Shown here one piece after another: positions 11,264 through 26,751 of a stretch of DNA of 36,922 nucleotides. Positions within the stretch are counted from its first letter, which is position 1, and every line of letters begins with the position of its first letter. The notes under the pieces are model-generated. The model saw only the letters and a program-made list of their open reading frames with translations, did not search any database and was not told where the DNA came from. The stretch spans positions 1 to 36,922 of the IMG/VR virus record IMGVR_UViG_3300006810_000146, one strand, 5' to 3'. The stretch comes from a virus. The position numbers were made by a program, and so were the translations under genes.

Positions 11264-11505
11264 CGCGGCACCCAGAGCGACCACCGAACGCAACCGCGCC
11301 CGTCCCGCCAGGAGACTTCCAGCCGCCCATGCCGGTCGAGCCGGATGGCCGGCACGGTGCCCGCTCGGTCGCACTCGAGGTCGGCCAAGCGTAGCGGCTG
11401 CCGCGGCGTCGGCGCTGCCGGTACTGGATGACTGGCGAGCGCAAGGATGGCGATGGTCGTTAGTCCCGCCACCATGCCCCAGAACAGCCAGGACAGAACG
11501 CTCAC
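11260..11505 (-). CDS. Small anchored protein of the lysis cluster
   Basis: The 81-residue product begins with one hydrophobic helix (LFWGMVAGLTTIAILALAS) followed by a polar, Arg-rich domain with two cysteines. Start is GTG 11505 overlapping the previous stop. It may be a periplasmic protein anchored by its N terminus. No lipobox is visible, so an outer-membrane spanin is not supported. Family not recognised. Confidence 0.55.
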   Translation of the reverse strand: MSVLSWLFWGMVAGLTTIAILALASHPVPAAPTPRQPLRLADLECDRAGTVPAIRLDRHGRLEVSWRDGRGCVRWSLWVPR

Positions 11506-11858
11506 GGCGTCACCCTGTCGATCTGCCGCTGGATATGCGGGACGACGAGATCGGCGATCCTGCTGTCCGACAGGCCGAGATGCTTCACCGTGTCGGGCAC
11601 CGATGCCCTCACATAAGCGATCGCCGCGCCGGTGGCGTCCGAGGTAACAGCCGGCATCGACCGTGCGCCCCCTGCCCGCGCAATGGCCGTCAGCGCAGCG
11701 TTCTCGAGCGCCGACTGCAGGAGCTTGGCCCGCGCCTCGTCCTTGATCACGTTGTTCGCTTTCAGCCAGGCGATGGCGGCCGGAATGGCAATCGTCGTCA
11801 GGACCGTGGCAAGCAGCGGCAGGACGACGGCGAGCGTGATGTCGATGGCGTTTTCCAT
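11502..11858 (-). CDS. Holin-like membrane protein
   Basis: The 118-residue protein has a long hydrophobic N-terminal segment (LAVVLPLLATVLTTIAIPAAIAW) and then a helical domain ending in a polar tail (VVPHIQRQIDRVTP). It starts at ATG 11858 after GGAGAA and directly follows the endolysin gene, the normal place for a holin. Phage holins with one N-terminal membrane segment are known, but this one could also be a general phage membrane protein. Confidence 0.6.
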   Translation of the reverse strand: MENAIDITLAVVLPLLATVLTTIAIPAAIAWLKANNVIKDEARAKLLQSALENAALTAIARAGGARSMPAVTSDATGAAIAYVRASVPDTVKHLGLSDSRIADLVVPHIQRQIDRVTP

Positions 11859-19431: not shown

Positions 19432-21135
19432 CTATGGTGCGGCTGCCGATTGTGCGACCTGAGGACGGGATTGCACTGCCGCCTGCCCGATTGCCGCCGA
19501 TGTTGCCCTAGCTGCCGCTGCCGGGGCCTGACTGGCCTGCTGCACCGTCTGGTTGACCGTCGAGTTCACCGTCACCGGGAACTGGCGGTTGTCCTGACGT
19601 GCATCAGTGATGGTCGCATCCACGGGGGCTCGGCCTGCCATTTCGGCTAGGTTGGAATTCATGCCTTCAAGCCGTGCCCGGATAGCATCAAGGCCTGCAG
19701 TCGTGCTCGCGCTCTCACTGAAACCGCCGCCGCTCCAACCGCTCCCGGTTTCGGCTGGCAGTGCGGGGGGGGGCGGCGCCGGCTGGCTCGCACCTGCGGC
19801 AGGCGCCGGGGGTGAAGCGACCGTCGCGGCAGGCGGCGCTGAGGCTGGTATTCCTGAATCAGCGGAGCCGCCTTGTCGCTTCAGTCGCTCGGCCTCGATC
19901 TGCTGGACAGCGATATCGTAGGCGTCATCGAATTCGCGAGGCGCCATGTAGGAATACAAATCCCCGTGGCCTCGCTCCTTGCGGATTTGGGCGACGCGCT
20001 CGCCGATGTTGAACATCTCCGTGCCGGCGTCGAGCACGCCGCTGACTGGATCGGCCAGCGCGCCGCCGACCGCCTTCATGAAATTGTCCCATGAAGACGA
20101 AAGCTGGTCGATCTCGGTCTGTGTGTCCCCCAGCACGCGGTTCAGGTCGTTCATGACCGAGCCGTCGACCTCGGAACTGTTCACCGTGTCGATGAACTTC
20201 TTGTAGCTATCGGCCGAGGTCATCAGCGACTGCATGCCAAGCCGGAATTCCTGATCGGTGAACAGGAGCGGCAGCTTCGTCAGATCGCCCTTGATTGTTT
20301 CGTTGGAGATGCGAACGAACGCATCCACCATGCCTTCGCCAGCATCGCGTGCGGCCTCGAGCTCCGCGCGCAGGTCGACACCGAACTTGCCGAACTTCGT
20401 CGCGGTTTCCTCGGTGAACATCTTGCCGAAGACGTTCTGCAACTGCGTCGCCGCGCCACTCGCCGATCCGGTATCTTCGCGCACCGTCTGCAGCAGGGCG
20501 ATGAGGGTCTTCAACCCTTCCTCGCCAGTGTAGCCTAGAGACGAGAAGGAGTTCGCCAGTTCGGGGATGAACTGTGCCATGTCCCGAAGTTCGAACTGCC
20601 CGGCCTTGCCGCCCGCGACCATGATGTCGAAGGCCTTCTGCAACTCGGAAGACTGGAGCCCGAGCGCGCTGGCAGCTTTCTGCGCAGTGTTAGCGATGTC
20701 CGTCGTCGCCGCGCCGGATGCTTGCGCCGTCGCCATGACAGATGGCAGGAACGCCATAGCCTGTTCAAGGGACATGCCCGACGCGACTAGCGTGTCGAGG
20801 CCCGCAATGGCCTGATCAAGCGGCAGGGCAACATCGAACGCAAGGTTGCGAATGACCTCGCCGGCCTTCGCGGTCTCCTCGGCCGTTGATCCCGCCGTGA
20901 TCCCGATCCGGGTCATCTCGCGTTCGAACCCGGCGAAGTTCCGGAATCCTGCCGTTCCTAGCGCAATGGCAGCCGTGGTAGCAGCACCGACCGCTACGCC
21001 CAATCCCCTCATGCGATCGGTCGAGCCCTTGGCCCGCTTCTCGGTCTTATCGAGCTCGTCGTTGAACTTCTCGACCGGCGCGGTGCTGCCGAGCTTGAAG
21101 CCGAGCAGTGCGATCAATTCCTCAGCGATTGCCAC
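19432..21135 (-). CDS. Tail tape measure protein
   Basis: The 567-residue protein has a coiled N terminus (EKFNDELDKTEKRAKG), then a hydrophobic AVGAATTAAIALGTAGFRNFAGFE stretch and the TP901-like core (MTRIGITAGSTAEETAKAGEVIRNLA, ALPLDQAIAGLDTLVASG, DIANTAQKAASALGL). The C terminus is rich in Pro, Ala and Gln. Tape measures set tail length at about 0.15 nm per residue, so a short tail near 85 nm is expected. It overlaps the frameshift product of the chaperone gene by 14 nt. Confidence 0.9.
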   Translation of the reverse strand: MAIAEELIALLGFKLGSTAPVEKFNDELDKTEKRAKGSTDRMRGLGVAVGAATTAAIALGTAGFRNFAGFEREMTRIGITAGSTAEETAKAGEVIRNLAFDVALPLDQAIAGLDTLVASGMSLEQAMAFLPSVMATAQASGAATTDIANTAQKAASALGLQSSELQKAFDIMVAGGKAGQFELRDMAQFIPELANSFSSLGYTGEEGLKTLIALLQTVREDTGSASGAATQLQNVFGKMFTEETATKFGKFGVDLRAELEAARDAGEGMVDAFVRISNETIKGDLTKLPLLFTDQEFRLGMQSLMTSADSYKKFIDTVNSSEVDGSVMNDLNRVLGDTQTEIDQLSSSWDNFMKAVGGALADPVSGVLDAGTEMFNIGERVAQIRKERGHGDLYSYMAPREFDDAYDIAVQQIEAERLKRQGGSADSGIPASAPPAATVASPPAPAAGASQPAPPPPALPAETGSGWSGGGFSESASTTAGLDAIRARLEGMNSNLAEMAGRAPVDATITDARQDNRQFPVTVNSTVNQTVQQASQAPAAAARATSAAIGQAAVQSRPQVAQSAAAP

Positions 21136-21775: not shown

Positions 21776-22150
21776 TTGCTCAGAGCCGCTATCGTTGCAG
21801 CATCATTGTTGGGAACAGCACCTGCGATGGCGCAATCAGTGGAGTTTTCCAACGCCTTGCCCTTCGAGATCGGGAAAGCGACGATGGAAGAGGTCGTGAC
21901 AGCCGGCGTGCCCTACACAGTCATCACTGTTGAGCTTCGGAACGGCTCGACACACACTCGGTCGGTCGACATCCACTGCGAGGCAGAGAACGCCGAGGGT
22001 ATGACTTGGGACGTGACGGGATCGGTATCTCAGCTGAGCGCAGGCGAGGTCCGAAGCGCGAGGCTGGTGAAGGAAACAGAAAGCCCCCTGGTCAACCCTA
22101 CGTCTGCCCGGTGTGTCGTCATGGGATTTGAGGGCGCAACGCCGCTTTAA
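21776..22150 (+). CDS. Plus-strand moron: secreted periplasmic protein
   Basis: The 124-residue product starts at TTG 21776 with GGGAGA seven bases upstream. It has a clear signal peptide (LRAAIVAASLLGTAPAMAQ, cleavage after AMA). The mature part is beta-rich and has two Cys (HCEAENAEG and ARCVVMG) that could form a disulfide. It runs opposite to the late genes, as lysogenic cargo does. It might alter the envelope or exclude other phages, but no family is recognised. Confidence 0.7.
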   Translation: MLRAAIVAASLLGTAPAMAQSVEFSNALPFEIGKATMEEVVTAGVPYTVITVELRNGSTHTRSVDIHCEAENAEGMTWDVTGSVSQLSAGEVRSARLVKETESPLVNPTSARCVVMGFEGATPL

Positions 22151-22181
22151 TGAAAAAGCCCGCGCGAGGCAGGCGTCGGTT

Positions 22182-22202
22182 CTGCTCAAGGTTGATGGGA
22201 TA
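22182..22202 (+). promoter_or_regulatory. Shared upstream element of plus-strand morons, copy 2
   Basis: CTGCTCAAGGTTG-N4-GATA is repeated here exactly in block and spacing as at 19026-19046, 38 nt before the ATG of the 22233 gene. The surrounding bases differ, so the conserved positions point to function. Confidence 0.5.
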
Positions 22203-22232
22203 GCGTTCGGCGACTGAAATGGGAGCCGAGAG

Positions 22233-22607
22233 ATGCCCGACGTAAGGACGACGTTTAACTCAAGGGACGGCTTACTCAGGATTGAGGTGGAGGATGACGA
22301 GGGCCACAAAGTGGGCATCCCCCTCTCCGCAGAGACTGCAGCGCGTCTGATTGGAAACCTGCTGGGTATGTTGCCGTTATGCGAGCCGACCGGACGGGAG
22401 GACACGATGATCCTTGGCGATCTTCAGTCTCCGACTGTTCGGACAGGGACCACGCATGAAGGCGAGTTTTTGCTCGACGTGTATCTGTCATCTGACGTCG
22501 CACTCCGGTTTACGCTTGAGGACGGACAATGGGCCGGCGTCTGCCGCGAAGTCTTCGACATGATCAAAACGAAGGCCGAAGGACGGGGCGACAATCCGGT
22601 CCAATGA
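22233..22607 (+). CDS. Plus-strand moron, hypothetical protein (124 aa)
   Basis: The protein is beta-rich at first (VRTTFNSRDGLLRIEVEDDEGHKVGIPLSAETAARLIGNLLG). Its second half is LDVYLSSDVALRFTLEDGQWAGVCREVFDMI. It has no signal peptide or membrane segment. ATG 22233 has a GGAG/GAGAG sequence before it and a terminator just after the stop, so it is a complete single-gene unit. No family is recognised. It is convergent to the repeat array of the neighbouring module. Confidence 0.65.
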   Translation: MPDVRTTFNSRDGLLRIEVEDDEGHKVGIPLSAETAARLIGNLLGMLPLCEPTGREDTMILGDLQSPTVRTGTTHEGEFLLDVYLSSDVALRFTLEDGQWAGVCREVFDMIKTKAEGRGDNPVQ

Positions 22608-22640
22608 AAAGGCCGCCCCGAAGGACGGCCCGATCTTTTT
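22607..22640. terminator. Bidirectional intrinsic terminator
   Basis: GGCCG/CGGCC arms plus two inner pairs close a CGAA loop (22611-22630). Five T follow on the plus strand (22636-22640) and four T on the minus strand (22610-22607). It ends the 22233 gene and would also end a minus-strand transcript running through the phased array. Confidence 0.75.
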
Positions 22641-22648
22641 ACTTCAAA

Positions 22649-22828
22649 CCGGCCGCGACGCGACACGCCTCTGCGCGCCATGCCGAACCCCGCCTAGCCT
22701 GCCATACCAAGCGTTGCCAAACCGCGCCCCGCCGTGCCTAGCCTGCGTTACCAGACCGAGACCCGCCTCGACGTACCGGGACTCACCATCCCCCGCCTAG
22801 CCTGCCCTGCCGTGATCCTCGCCAGCCG
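22649..22828 (-). repeat. Noncoding 5-nt-phased GG array with three 11-bp repeats
   Basis: On the minus strand GG dinucleotides recur every 5 nt. Between 22653 and 22811 I count 33 phase positions: 25 hold GG and the other eight keep one G. The three bases between are variable, the first usually C or T. Three copies of GCAGGCTAGGC (plus-strand coordinates 22692-22702, 22736-22746, 22795-22805) each contain a 4-nt step, the only breaks in phase; they are 44 and 59 nt apart. No open frame with a ribosome-binding site fits. It lies directly 3' of, and on the same strand as, the genes at 22855-24116, so it is probably transcribed with them up to the terminator at 22607. Confidence 0.8.
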
Positions 22829-22854
22829 ATCGGGCGATCAGCTCCGCGCCATTC

Positions 22855-23361
22855 TCAAGCAGCAATATCGTGCTGTTTCGCTGCCTGTTCGAGAAGCGTC
22901 TTGAGCCTCTCCAAGTTTCTCATCGACCCGCCGGCAAATTCCACCGCCGAACCGTATCGCCGAAGCCATGTTTCCATGGCCTGTGCCGCCTGCCGACAAT
23001 GCTCGGCCATATGGCTCGGGTCATTGGCATCGAACAGTTTGTATCCGCCACCGTCGCGGCGGGTGGCAATCGGCGAGATCACGAGTGGTGTTTCCGTTTG
23101 ACGAATCCGAACCGGCTTCGTCTGCCCCACTTCTTCGACCTGGAACGTGACCCGAAGCCCTTTGGCAAACTCACGAGCCTGCCAAAGCTTATGCTCGAAT
23201 GCGGCCTTGTCGGCGTCCCACTCGAACCACCCGTGCGCAGGGTGCAAAGGCCCGACCCGCTCGACTTCCTCAAGGAATATCCGAGGGTTGTAGTTACCGT
23301 TGTGGCGGACGGCGAACTCCTGAATAATTTCTTGCCGCCGCTCTTTGGTGAAGTTCGCCAT
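22855..23361 (-). CDS. Unknown partner of the RAMP-like protein (168 aa)
   Basis: The gene starts by TAATG overlap with the gene before it and ends 27 nt from the phased array. The product opens with a basic helix (NFTKERRQEIIQEFAVRHNG), continues with WFEWDADKAAFEHKLWQAREFA and a beta segment (TFQVEEV), and ends with two helices around AMETWLRRYGSA and LERLKTLLEQAA. It has no Cys cluster, membrane segment or known nuclease motif. Coupling suggests it works with the RAMP-like protein. Similar proteins occur in other phages as far as I can recall, without a function. Confidence 0.65.
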   Translation of the reverse strand: MANFTKERRQEIIQEFAVRHNGNYNPRIFLEEVERVGPLHPAHGWFEWDADKAAFEHKLWQAREFAKGLRVTFQVEEVGQTKPVRIRQTETPLVISPIATRRDGGGYKLFDANDPSHMAEHCRQAAQAMETWLRRYGSAVEFAGGSMRNLERLKTLLEQAAKQHDIAA

Positions 23362-24116
23362 TATGCAGCCCTCCGCTTCGTCTCGGCAGCGTAGAACTCC
23401 ATCAACTCTGCGGTGTCGCTCCCGGCAAAATCGGGATCAGCGAGAGCGGCTTCCTGCGCATCGCGAGCGTGGTACTCGACAAGCTCATTCCACTCGTCAT
23501 CGTCCTCGCCTTCGCCAATGACGCGAAACAGCCCGTAGCCGCCCTTGCCCTTTTCCTGTCGAAAGTCGCCGACGCCGACCAGCACTCCTGCATTACAGAG
23601 CAGCGTCACAACCGAGGTCATGGAAAGCTGCGGCATGATGAACTGGACGTTCAGTTCGGCACCCCACTTCGGAAGGAAGCAGCGAGACCGTACGTCCGGG
23701 GTCCGCGCCATGTCGGCGGAGCGAACCACGTCCATCCGCAAGTGAGGCGTCCCGTAGAGCGCGACCCTGTCGCCGGGCAGGAAAAGAAGGCGTTGCGCCG
23801 AGGTCTTTGTCATCCCCGGCGTTTCCAGCGCCGCCGTTGCCATGGCCGCTTTTACAGCGACGACCTGGAGCCCGAGAGCGGTCGGACCATCATCCATGAT
23901 CTCGGCGCTATCCCGAAACTCTTGGAGCGGATGGTGCTTGATCTCGACGCGCTCGGCACGGGTCTTTTTCTTCGTCCCGACGAGCAGACCCTGCTTGACC
24001 TTGGCGCTCATTCGGTTCTGGAACATCGGCTGTGTACCAACGATCCTGAGCTTAACTGACCCACGCCGCAAAGGCTGGATGGTGATGTCTGCGGTTTCTT
24101 TTTTGGCGGTTGCCAT
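23361..24116 (-). CDS. RAMP-like protein with glycine-rich loop
   Basis: The 251-residue protein has an N-terminal strand-type start (SVKLRIVGTQPMFQNRM) and a middle containing LPGDRVALYGTPHLRMDVVRSADM. Residues 177-197 read GVLVGVGDFRQEKGKGGYG, then FRVIGEG. This Gly-rich loop after a hydrophobic helix resembles the loop of RAMP/ferredoxin-like RNA-binding proteins (Cas7/Cas6 superfamily). An acidic C-terminal helix follows. Binding of RNA or single-stranded DNA is inferred, not shown. ATG 24116 has GGAG upstream; ATG 24131 has none. A possible leader stem stands just before the ribosome-binding site. Confidence 0.6.
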   Translation of the reverse strand: MATAKKETADITIQPLRRGSVKLRIVGTQPMFQNRMSAKVKQGLLVGTKKKTRAERVEIKHHPLQEFRDSAEIMDDGPTALGLQVVAVKAAMATAALETPGMTKTSAQRLLFLPGDRVALYGTPHLRMDVVRSADMARTPDVRSRCFLPKWGAELNVQFIMPQLSMTSVVTLLCNAGVLVGVGDFRQEKGKGGYGLFRVIGEGEDDDEWNELVEYHARDAQEAALADPDFAGSDTAELMEFYAAETKRRAA

Positions 24117-24125
24117 TTGATTTAT

Positions 24126-24196
24126 CTCCATTGGCGCCCGGCCCGCCAAGCCCGGAAACGCACAGGGGTTCGCTTTCGCGAACACCGGGGCCAATG
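24126..24196 (-). promoter_or_regulatory. Leader stem next to the RAMP-like gene's ribosome-binding site
   Basis: In the minus-strand transcript, CATTGGC (24196-24190) can pair with GCCAATG (24135-24129), enclosing a GTTCGC-gaaa-GCGAAC hairpin (24183-24168). The GGAG that serves ATG 24116 overlaps the closing stem's last base. Folding could affect translation of the RAMP-like gene. A GGTGTTCGCG copy just before adds to the symmetry. The rest of 24195-24255 holds nothing I can identify. Confidence 0.45.
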
Positions 24197-24255
24197 AAGC
24201 TGGTGTTCGCGTCTCATCCCCATGGCGGCGGGGAATTCAAATCTTGATTTTGGTG

Positions 24256-24666
24256 TTAAGCGGCGCGTCTCGTGTTTCTGGCGGCCTCGTCGGCCTTCCG
24301 CTTCCGCCCGATCATCCACTCCATGACCTCGGCGATGTCGGAGCCGCAATCCAGCATCTCGTAGGACGAGACAATGCGGATGGCCTCCTCGTCCTCGTCT
24401 GGATTGCCGGTCGGCTCGCGGTGCTTCATTTCGAGGATGAACATCTCGCGCAGCCCGCCGAGCCGGTCCATTTCCTTGGCTATCCACTTTCCGCCGACGC
24501 TATTGGCGTCGCACCTCGGCTGATTGTAGACGCCGCAGAGACCGTCGATCCCGGCGGACAGAGCCGCGATCACGACCTCCAACTCAATCCCCGCCATGTG
24601 CGGGAGGCGCATCGCCTCGGTCGGAAACGACTGCGCCAGTCGGGCCTTCCTCTCCATGTCCGCCAT
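24256..24666 (-). CDS. Unknown protein of the accessory module (136 aa)
   Basis: ATG 24666 overlaps the TGA of the gene before it. The protein is mainly helical, with MAGIELEVVIAALSAGIDGLCG and MDRLGGLREMFILEMKHRE segments and an acidic GNPDEDEEAIRI stretch. Its end (WMIGRKRKADEAARNTRRAA) is strongly basic and could bind nucleic acid. No family is recognised. Transcription with the RAMP-like gene is likely although 139 nt separate the two. Confidence 0.55.
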   Translation of the reverse strand: MADMERKARLAQSFPTEAMRLPHMAGIELEVVIAALSAGIDGLCGVYNQPRCDANSVGGKWIAKEMDRLGGLREMFILEMKHREPTGNPDEDEEAIRIVSSYEMLDCGSDIAEVMEWMIGRKRKADEAARNTRRAA

Positions 24667-24827
24667 CACGCTGCCTCCAGCACGCGAACGGCGCCACCGG
24701 ACAGAACCGGCTTGGGCTTGTCGGCGATAACCAGGGCGGACGACGCATCGCCTTCAATGCGGGCAAAGGCGCTTGCCACGAACGGGTCGCGGGCAATGCG
24801 GGAAAGCTGTATGGTGCGGGTAGCCAT
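24666..24827 (-). CDS. Small first protein of the accessory module (53 aa)
   Basis: The short frame begins ATGGCTACCCGCACC behind AGGAGG and ends in a TGA that overlaps the next ATG. The product is MATRTIQLSRIARDP followed by an Ala-rich, mixed sequence ending VLSGGAVRVLEAA. It is the promoter-proximal gene of the module, transcribed away from the ribbon-helix-helix gene. A role as an antitoxin-like or adaptor peptide is possible, but nothing shows it. Confidence 0.55.
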   Translation of the reverse strand: MATRTIQLSRIARDPFVASAFARIEGDASSALVIADKPKPVLSGGAVRVLEAA

Positions 24828-24909
24828 TCGATGATCCTCCTGAGATCGTCGTTTCGGTCAGGGCCGGTGTGGAAGTTGCTGCTTCCCATCGGCCTGATTT
24901 TTATATATA

Positions 24910-24935
24910 GGTAATTTCAGGAGGCGTCAATTACC
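24910..24935. promoter_or_regulatory. Palindromic operator over the RBS of the RHH gene
   Basis: GGTAATT at 24910-24916 and AATTACC at 24929-24935 are perfect inverted arms around 12 nt. AGGAGG, the only ribosome-binding site for the RHH gene, lies between them at 24919-24924, and an AT-rich TATATA stretch stands at its left. A dimeric RHH protein could bind it and repress both its own gene and the divergent module. In RNA the same arms would form a hairpin with the ribosome-binding site in the loop. Confidence 0.6.
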
Positions 24936-24938
24936 CAT

Positions 24939-25136
24939 ATGCGAAATTCACCCCCTCGCCCTCGCGGGCGACCAGAGACCGTGCCGCATAAGAAGCTCAT
25001 CGCGTTTGACGATGAGACCTTAACGGCTGTCGATGCGTTCACCGCCGATCAAGGTGACAAGCCCAATCGATCCGAAGCGATCCGGCGCCTTTTGCGGGAT
25101 GCCCTGATCAGCCTTGGCTATCTCAAGAACAGTTGA
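24939..25136 (+). CDS. Ribbon-helix-helix (CopG/Arc-type) regulator
   Basis: The 65-residue protein has a basic N-terminal strand (HKKLIAFDDETLTAVDAF) and two helices (ADQGDKPNRSEAIRRLLRDALISLG), the RHH fold of small dimeric repressors. It starts at ATG 24939 just after the palindrome. It is divergent from the accessory module and convergent with the tail tube gene, four bases from its end. The likely role is control of the module's promoter and its own. Confidence 0.75.
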   Translation: MRNSPPRPRGRPETVPHKKLIAFDDETLTAVDAFTADQGDKPNRSEAIRRLLRDALISLGYLKNS

Positions 25137-25139
25137 GCA

Positions 25140-25581: not shown

Positions 25582-26751
25582 TCAGGAAAGAACGGTGTAT
25601 GCGGCCTGGGCAAAATGCACGGCGCCGGCATAGCGGAAGGACACCCGGATGGGCGGCGAGATGCGGGCGTTGCGCTGCGACGCCGGAACCGATCGGGCGC
25701 GCGGGATGACCATCTCGTAGGCAGGCGAAACCAGCCCCGTCACATCGTCGATGTCGGCCGCAATGGCACCCGCATCGATCGCGCTGTTCATGACCAACTC
25801 GACCGCAGATCCAAGGAGCGCCATGCCACGGTCATCGAAGGCCACGCGCTTGTTGTTCAGCATGATGTTGAACAGTTCCTCCTCGGTGCGGGCCTTGAGC
25901 CAGTCGCCGAAGTGGATTTCATCGACGAAATCGTTCTGCGACATGACCGAGCCGAACTGGACGTGGTTCTGCCCGCCGATGTCGACGTAGACCGATGCGA
26001 GATGGCCGACGCTTTTGTCCTGGCCGAGGCCGGGGACGAAGCCCGTAACCGCCTGCAGTTCGCCGCCGGTGATGTTGGTTCGGGTGATGCCCCGAAGCTG
26101 CTTGAAAGCCGGCGTGTAGGCGCTCTCCGCCTCATCCAGCACGAAGGAACTCAGCAGAGCCGCCAGAGCGACCGACGGGTATTCGGCCTCTACCTCGTGG
26201 TAGAAGATCGCGGTGCGCTCGTATTCCGAAACCTTCAGCCGGGCCGCGATGTTGGTCGTGTCCGTCGGGCTCTTCATCAACACGTCGTTGCTGTCGATGA
26301 TGGCGATGACGGTATGGGCCTCGGCCCAGGCCGCAATGGCATCGGTGATGCTGGCGGTGTCCCGTAGATCGTCCTCGACCAGAAGGAAGTACCATTCGGC
26401 GTCGGCATCACGGATCGCGTCGAGTTCGTCGGCGAGCAACGCGGCCTTGGCCGGGGCATCGGCACCGGCCGCCACAGCTGTGGCGTCGTAGTAGCCGACC
26501 TTGAAGGCTGCAGGGCGCGGGTTCTGGCCGAACGCGGTCTGGCCGGCCACATAGGCGGCATCGGCCGCATCGAAGTCGGCCGCGACCTCTTCCATGGTCG
26601 TGTAGAGCTTCGTCCTGTTGTCCTCATCGACCGCGCCGGTCACCTCGACCGACTGCAGGAACATCGGCGTTCCGAAGCCACGGCGGGCCACGAAATTGTC
26701 CGTGCGCGTGACAGAGACGTCGACAACGCGGCTGTAGGGAATGACCGCCAC
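25582..26751 (-). CDS. Contractile tail sheath protein (DUF3383-like)
   Basis: The 389-residue protein matches DUF3383 sheath proteins: IPYSRVVDVSVTRTDNFVARRGFG at the N terminus, LYTTMEEVAADFDAADAAYVAGQTAFGQNP, and DVLMKSPTDTTNIAARLK. The C-terminal part has FIEEIHFGDWLKARTEEELFNIML-like handshake segments and an AISPPIRVSFRYAGA end. It contracts to drive the tube through the envelope, which makes this a myovirus-type phage. The tube gene follows immediately. Confidence 0.88.
   Translation of the reverse strand: MAVIPYSRVVDVSVTRTDNFVARRGFGTPMFLQSVEVTGAVDEDNRTKLYTTMEEVAADFDAADAAYVAGQTAFGQNPRPAAFKVGYYDATAVAAGADAPAKAALLADELDAIRDADAEWYFLLVEDDLRDTASITDAIAAWAEAHTVIAIIDSNDVLMKSPTDTTNIAARLKVSEYERTAIFYHEVEAEYPSVALAALLSSFVLDEAESAYTPAFKQLRGITRTNITGGELQAVTGFVPGLGQDKSVGHLASVYVDIGGQNHVQFGSVMSQNDFVDEIHFGDWLKARTEEELFNIMLNNKRVAFDDRGMALLGSAVELVMNSAIDAGAIAADIDDVTGLVSPAYEMVIPRARSVPASQRNARISPPIRVSFRYAGAVHFAQAAYTVLS

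Follow-up and report, generated by a model that had tools for sequence, protein, structure and literature searches.

A phage-borne VIPR whose guides address tail genes is, with high confidence, the best overall explanation of a minus-strand locus in the window analysed here, a 36.9-kb virus record (36,922 nt) of a temperate phage with a contractile tail; the sheath and tape-measure genes of related phages would be silenced by it and the carrier itself spared. Judging by sequence comparison, the three-guide GGY-NN array shares its direction with vipr and an accessory gene, and all of them are inserted between tail genes of this phage; the sheath and tape-measure genes of VIPR-less related phages can be read, in sense orientation, from the NN pairs. 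It is probable that the window phage silences competing viruses in this way. By its features the locus belongs to an already known kind, VIPR, and its new part is the decoded natural targets.

VIPR has recently been described as an RNA-guided, RAMP-based, phage-borne system in a 2026 preprint (PMC13142463), the only report of it in the literature searched. According to the text of the preprint, each VIPR RNA (vrRNA) carries 9-16 GGY-NN (YNNGG) repeats, in which GGY alternates with hypervariable NN, and the RAMP (Cas7-like) protein binds the GGY repeats. Double-stranded DNA is read through the NN with one base passed over, in most cases the codon wobble, and competing elements are silenced (PMC13142463). 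Binding of vrRNA by Vipr, the one-base skip and repression of transcription on either strand are presented there as experimentally shown for other VIPRs (PMC13142463). The window locus confirms this non-contiguous code independently, from natural sequence alone and in a different lineage.

Structure of the array

The GGY-NN pentamer array (vrRNA array) runs on the minus strand from 22811 down to 22649 and comprises 33 units, 25 with GG, eight with a single G and none without G. A first reading of the letters (the sequence-only reading) had described GG every 5 nt on this strand in these very proportions, and was exact to the base; its limits of 22649-22828 were right at the start, while the end at 22828 took in part of a hairpin leader (22800-22856). 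The array is divided into blocks of 59 nt (11x5+4), 44 nt (8x5+4) and 49 nt (9x5+4), each closed by a 4-nt unit, and the first two lengths had been given correctly. The 11, 8 and 9 pentamers per block compare with the 9-16 repeats of VIPR, the 8 being just under that range. Three phase slips, each inside an 11-bp repeat, had also been noted: the repeat, GCAGGCTAGGC, does occur three times (22795-22805, 22736-22746 and 22692-22702) and nowhere else in the window, but the third block is closed by an extra 4-nt unit, GGCC, at 22654-22651, bringing the 4-nt units to four.

In the order of reading, the minus strand holds the slip unit GGCA (22803..22806), the same word that closes blocks in related arrays, followed by guide 1 (22748..22802), the unit CGCA (22744..22747) at the border to guide 2 (22704..22743), a second GGCA (22700..22703) at the border to guide 3 (22655..22699), and the terminal GGCC (22651..22654); related arrays likewise end in a slip word and then a hairpin. 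Guides abut via the 4-nt unit, and no structured 3' tail is present for any guide in the array.

The shuffling check proposed by the earlier reading upheld the 5-nt phasing. The array has a phase-tracking score of 12.5, which none of 5000 dinucleotide-preserving local shuffles reached (mean 3.2, maximum 9); whole-window shuffles (n=200) gave at most 5.75, below half of that value, and the plus strand scored 5. The GG autocorrelation peaks at lags 5, 10 and 15 with 17, 15 and 14 pairs, against 3-10 at other lags. As had been proposed, the tract is non-coding, bounded by the vap stop codon (22855) and the terminator (22610-22631), and it is not a normal palindromic CRISPR: palindromic direct repeats with unique contiguous spacers are absent, the repeats are 5 nt and the 11-mer is the only longer one. 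Rfam gave no match on the array or the leader.

Vipr, the accessory gene and the leader

The vipr gene (23361..24116, minus strand) encodes a 251-aa protein with a predicted RAMP (Csm3/Cas7) fold. In a Foldseek search of the PDB with its AlphaFold model (pLDDT 86), all 20 top matches were CRISPR RAMP subunits or complexes (best E 4.4e-5), and the closest structures were Csm3 and other CRISPR RAMP subunits (VIA Z 9.2, rmsd 3.7 over 152 aa). The profile of the 251-aa family also matched the Vipr of SUSP1, whose gene was located in this analysis at L100 28474-29061 with GGY-NN tracts on its flanks (probability 95.5, E 1.5e-8, the G-loop GVGDFRQEKGKG included). The model, the fold search and the SUSP1 profile thus agree on a RAMP-fold Vipr with a G-loop and a single RRM-type domain, as in VIPR.

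The adjacent accessory gene known from VIPR is represented by a vap-like gene of 168 aa (22855..23361, minus strand), which overlaps the vipr stop and is a conserved neighbour of vipr, found beside it in 69 of the 90 related loci with enough flank. Its protein model (pLDDT 94) shows the order helix-helix-helix-strand-strand followed by long helices, which is winged-helix-like; it gave no significant match in the PDB and no homology to SUSP1 vap1 detectable by sequence.

The structured leader (22800..22856, minus strand), a covarying hairpin followed by GGCGAGGATCACGGC, stands directly before the array. Two-sided compensatory changes occur in 8 of the 11 hairpin pairs (7 sequences), and the leader model R1 gives 73 bits here and picks up L084 as well (51.6 bits), a locus left out of model building. 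In L083 the leader occurs twice (11420-11478 and 11681-11736), the second copy within the array region, and with this double copy the leader may serve in processing, as an element that recurs between groups of guides. An intrinsic terminator (22610..22631, minus strand; 9-pair stem, TTCG loop, T tract) follows the array. The order of the cassette on the minus strand is therefore vipr, vap-like gene, hairpin leader, array, terminator. PADLOC, Pfam and NCBIfam recognised no other cas gene among the proteins scanned, which are part of the ORFs of the window.

Phage context and insertion

The window phage has genes for an integrase, terminase, portal, major head protein, sheath, tape measure and baseplate. 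Comparison with L158, a relative of the window phage with a 97% identical baseplate hub and without vipr, places the VIPR cassette in extra DNA between the tube and tail-chaperone genes (21853..25139); in L158 the matches to these two genes are only ~33 nt apart, at 11584 (end of the tube match) and 11617 (start of the chaperone match). A divergent gene for a ribbon-helix-helix protein (24939..25136, plus strand) borders the inserted cassette on its upstream side and is a possible cassette regulator; its Pfam RHH_1 match (E 1.3e-3) is just under the curated cut-off. Despite the near-identical hub, the tape measure of the window (19432-21135) differs in type from that of L158.

Decoding of the guides

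The NN were read with the one-base skip of VIPR (NN-x-NN), in 3-nt steps on DNA. Guide 1 (NN = TA GG AT GA CC AC GA GG TC CT AA) was searched exactly in a viral collection as a pattern of nine NN at skip 1. Five contigs were found (L101-L105), all in tape-measure genes and all at the codons for YGIDPTDGSL; the tenth NN (TA), outside the search pattern, fits in 5/5 of them, giving 20/20 core bases in each. Two unrelated 18-base patterns, taken from guides of the related arrays L017 and L082, had no exact hit in the same collection.

Further support comes from L158, the longer piece of L111, which was fetched via guide 2 (NN = TA AC GG GC TT AA TT AT), guides 1 and 3 having played no part in the fetching. 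At skip 1, guide 1 matches 19/20 bases in its tape-measure gene, and guide 2 (16/16, codons for YTGAFKFI) and guide 3 (NN = TA GG TC AT GC GA GT GC GC; 17/18, codons for YGSMEEVAA) match its sheath gene. All three matches lie on the coding (sense) strand with the skipped base at the codon wobble. Only 11-15 bases match at skips 0, 2, 3 and 4, and among permutations of the NN order 0/1000 per guide reach the observed value for each of the three guides. The natural targets of all three guides thus fit skip 1 only, in agreement with the one-base-skip (xNN) reading of VIPR.

Other relatives carry the same sites. Guide 3 matches 17/18 at one site in five sheath genes (L158, L155, L156, L163 and L164), the single mismatched base being identical in all targets sampled, and guide 1 matches the tape-measure genes of L163 (19/20) and of L155, L160 and L166 (18/20), its last NN fitting only L163. 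None of these target phages carries vipr; the targets, as in VIPR, lie in competing phages, here in the sheath and tape-measure genes of vipr-less relatives. The comparison of variable bases with other phage genomes, suggested by the earlier reading, led to tail genes of related phages. Its variable triplets gave way to a code of NN, since C or T predominates at the third base of GGY.

Complementarity sets in with the first NN behind a 4-nt unit and extends up to the following unit or stops just short of it, as at CGCA and the second GGCA. Because the limits of the matches coincide exactly with the slips, these slips, real phase shifts as had been seen, are better taken as guide boundaries than as irregularities. 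The 11-mer reads as the boundary word plus the shared first codon TA.

The own copies of the targets differ. The sheath gene of the window (25582..26751, minus strand; PHROG_205 tail sheath, E 1e-75) is diverged at both guide sites, encoding YTTMEEVAA at the guide 3 site (14/18) and YTPAFKQL at the guide 2 site, and the guide 1 site is not present in the tape measure of the window phage. This site was seen only in the L158 type of tape measure, the window type being without it.

In 397 Aureimonas-order genomes, guide 1 had a single hit, a tape-measure gene, and guide 3 had four, one of them a sheath gene in an Aureimonas ureilytica genome (L175); the other three look like chance, the reversed-pattern control giving two. 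A Rhizobiales setting fits the guide 3 site in this genome. The target phages, which are metagenomic or prophage contigs, would share a host with the window phage, as their relatedness suggests.

Some hits were set aside. Guide 2 is short, and its 42 viral hits, many of them in unrelated marine phages, are for the most part due to chance or to a conserved motif abundant in marine phages; only the relative L111 was used. Two identical antisense hits of guide 3 on an unrelated ORF were also regarded as chance. When ~370 guides of all arrays were searched against 1 Mb of related loci, no excess appeared at any skip; with 1.8 Mb there was a modest skip-1 excess led by the window guides, partly circular because some loci had been fetched with these guides. 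Actinophage guides against Fruitloop, Tweety and Bxb1 remained at chance level, and among the arrays scanned decoding success was confined to that of the window.

Related loci

Relatives of the 251-aa protein were found in viral contigs (80), in bacterial genome contigs (18), including Aureimonas, Methylobacterium, Bradyrhizobium and Microvirga, and in 29 GenBank phage records. Most of the ~100 related loci have the same layout, with a same-strand GG array of 5-nt step, up to 1.4 kb long, shortly downstream of vipr. A strict downstream array is present in 69 of the 90 loci with enough flank. Steps 4, 6 and 7 almost always score at chance level in these loci, with single exceptions such as L044 and L064 (step 6). 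The search for GG tracts beside homologues of the 23361-24116 protein, which the sequence-only reading had asked for, thus found relatives with the tract beside both proteins. Loci with both proteins and no tract, which would have counted against it, amount to at most 2 (L008 and L048) of 16 further loci checked by a permissive, uncalibrated scan.

Related arrays show mostly C or T at position 3 of the pentamer and variable positions 4-5, and their 4-nt units, GGCA, GGCG, GGCT or GGCC by lineage, recur after ~8-14 pentamers. The near-identical arrays of L004 and L005 differ less often at NN than at Y, and another pair differs at NN only; this shared-block comparison supports no general conclusion. 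The same Vipr family, annotated as hypothetical, occurs with long slip-type arrays in Gordonia phages UmaThurman and ODay and Mycobacterium phage Donkeykong (L177 3090-3400; L178 2031-2345; L179 3132-3300). The array overlaps the annotated gp40 (UmaThurman) and gp48 (Donkeykong), which are probably not real genes; the vipr of Donkeykong is gp49. An upstream array is seen in about ten loci, and second arrays distant from or upstream of vipr lie at L057 5792-6342, L062 1-242 and L089 552-733. In a Microvirga genome contig, L086 18857-18928 matches the Pseudomonas sRNA P10 of Rfam (42.6 bits).

Against this background the window array, short where others reach 1.4 kb, might be taken for a decayed, non-functional one, with a G missing from 8 of its 33 units and a share of GG units below that of most other arrays. 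Such decay is improbable: its three guides still fit the tail genes of one relative, neither gene is disrupted, the leader and the terminator are in place, and the same phage, with identical vipr and vap, occurs in another metagenome (L002).

Proposed mechanism

A functional VIPR would work as follows. The array would be transcribed from an operon together with vipr and vap and cut into guides at the slips, each slip ending one guide and starting the next. Each Vipr subunit would bind one GGY and present the NN to the template DNA strand for base pairing, a 5-nt RNA step thereby reading a 3-nt DNA step. In a relative that co-infects the cell or already resides in it, the complex would then block transcription of the sheath and tape-measure genes, and a co-infecting relative, with these genes blocked, would be unable to build tails. 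The carrier would be spared through divergence, the codons of its sheath being different at the two sites and the guide 1 site being missing from its tape measure.

The guides might instead serve RNA targeting or DNA destruction, for type III RAMPs, the nearest to Vipr in fold, bind RNA targets. This is a far less credible use of the array, since all three guides are of coding sense and would pair with the template DNA strand, being unable to pair with mRNA; the cassette proteins scanned matched no nuclease family, and the SUSP1 VIPR is described in the preprint as binding double-stranded DNA and silencing without a nuclease (PMC13142463). Repetitive DNA for a DNA-binding filament (packaging, replication or nucleoid-like), with dinucleotides devoid of guide meaning, would account for the 5-nt phasing and the nearby filament-type protein but is in the main refuted, and can practically be dismissed, as the dinucleotides decode to relatives' genes at one skip length and their permutations do not. 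Under VIPR, the guide-like RNA, the scaffold of a Cas7-type filament and the DNA recognition code, offered as separate options by the earlier reading, come together as one, given the Csm3/Cas7 fold of the neighbouring protein, the relatives with the tract beside both proteins and the NN that decode to tail genes.

More broadly, we lean slightly towards a lineage of VIPRs with tail-less, stacked guides delimited by 4-nt slips and with a structured leader RNA, which temperate contractile-tail phages would use against tail genes of their closest VIPR-less relatives, self being spared by codon divergence; this would amount to an RNA-guided superinfection control of virion assembly. The sheath and tape measure of sibling phages add a target class unnamed in the text of PMC13142463, and the locus suggests a way of sparing self. 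With slips as guide boundaries, a parsing key becomes available for many long tail-less arrays in related phages. The Vipr family is present in culturable actinophages and is therefore open to experiments in standard laboratory hosts.

Comparison with known systems

Class 1 CRISPR-Cas systems, with their Csm3/Cas7 backbones, share with the window locus the RAMP fold and the principle of one protein subunit for each fixed RNA step. They differ in a 6-nt step with five read bases, against 5 nt with two here, and the window has no palindromic repeat-spacer array and no cas gene among the proteins scanned.

The likeness to the type II VIPR of SUSP1 is closer, extending to a phage-borne RAMP protein with a G-loop, an accessory gene, a GGY-NN pentamer RNA, the one-base-skip code with the skip at the codon wobble, and targets in competing elements. 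In the window, Vipr has 251 aa compared with 195 aa in SUSP1, the accessory protein is not recognisably vap1, and the targets are structural tail genes of relatives, whereas the SUSP1 target is a satellite. Three guides stand head to tail here with a 4-nt unit between them and no tails, while a structured 3' tail per vrRNA belongs to type II VIPR, other array forms existing in other types (PMC13142463). In terms of the types named in the text of the preprint, the missing 3' tails exclude the type II layout and not VIPR. Staggered arrays of overlapping vrRNAs are mentioned in the text for some VIPR types (PMC13142463, fig. S18), and the window array, with its phase shift from one guide to the next and without separate tails, probably represents this staggered layout.
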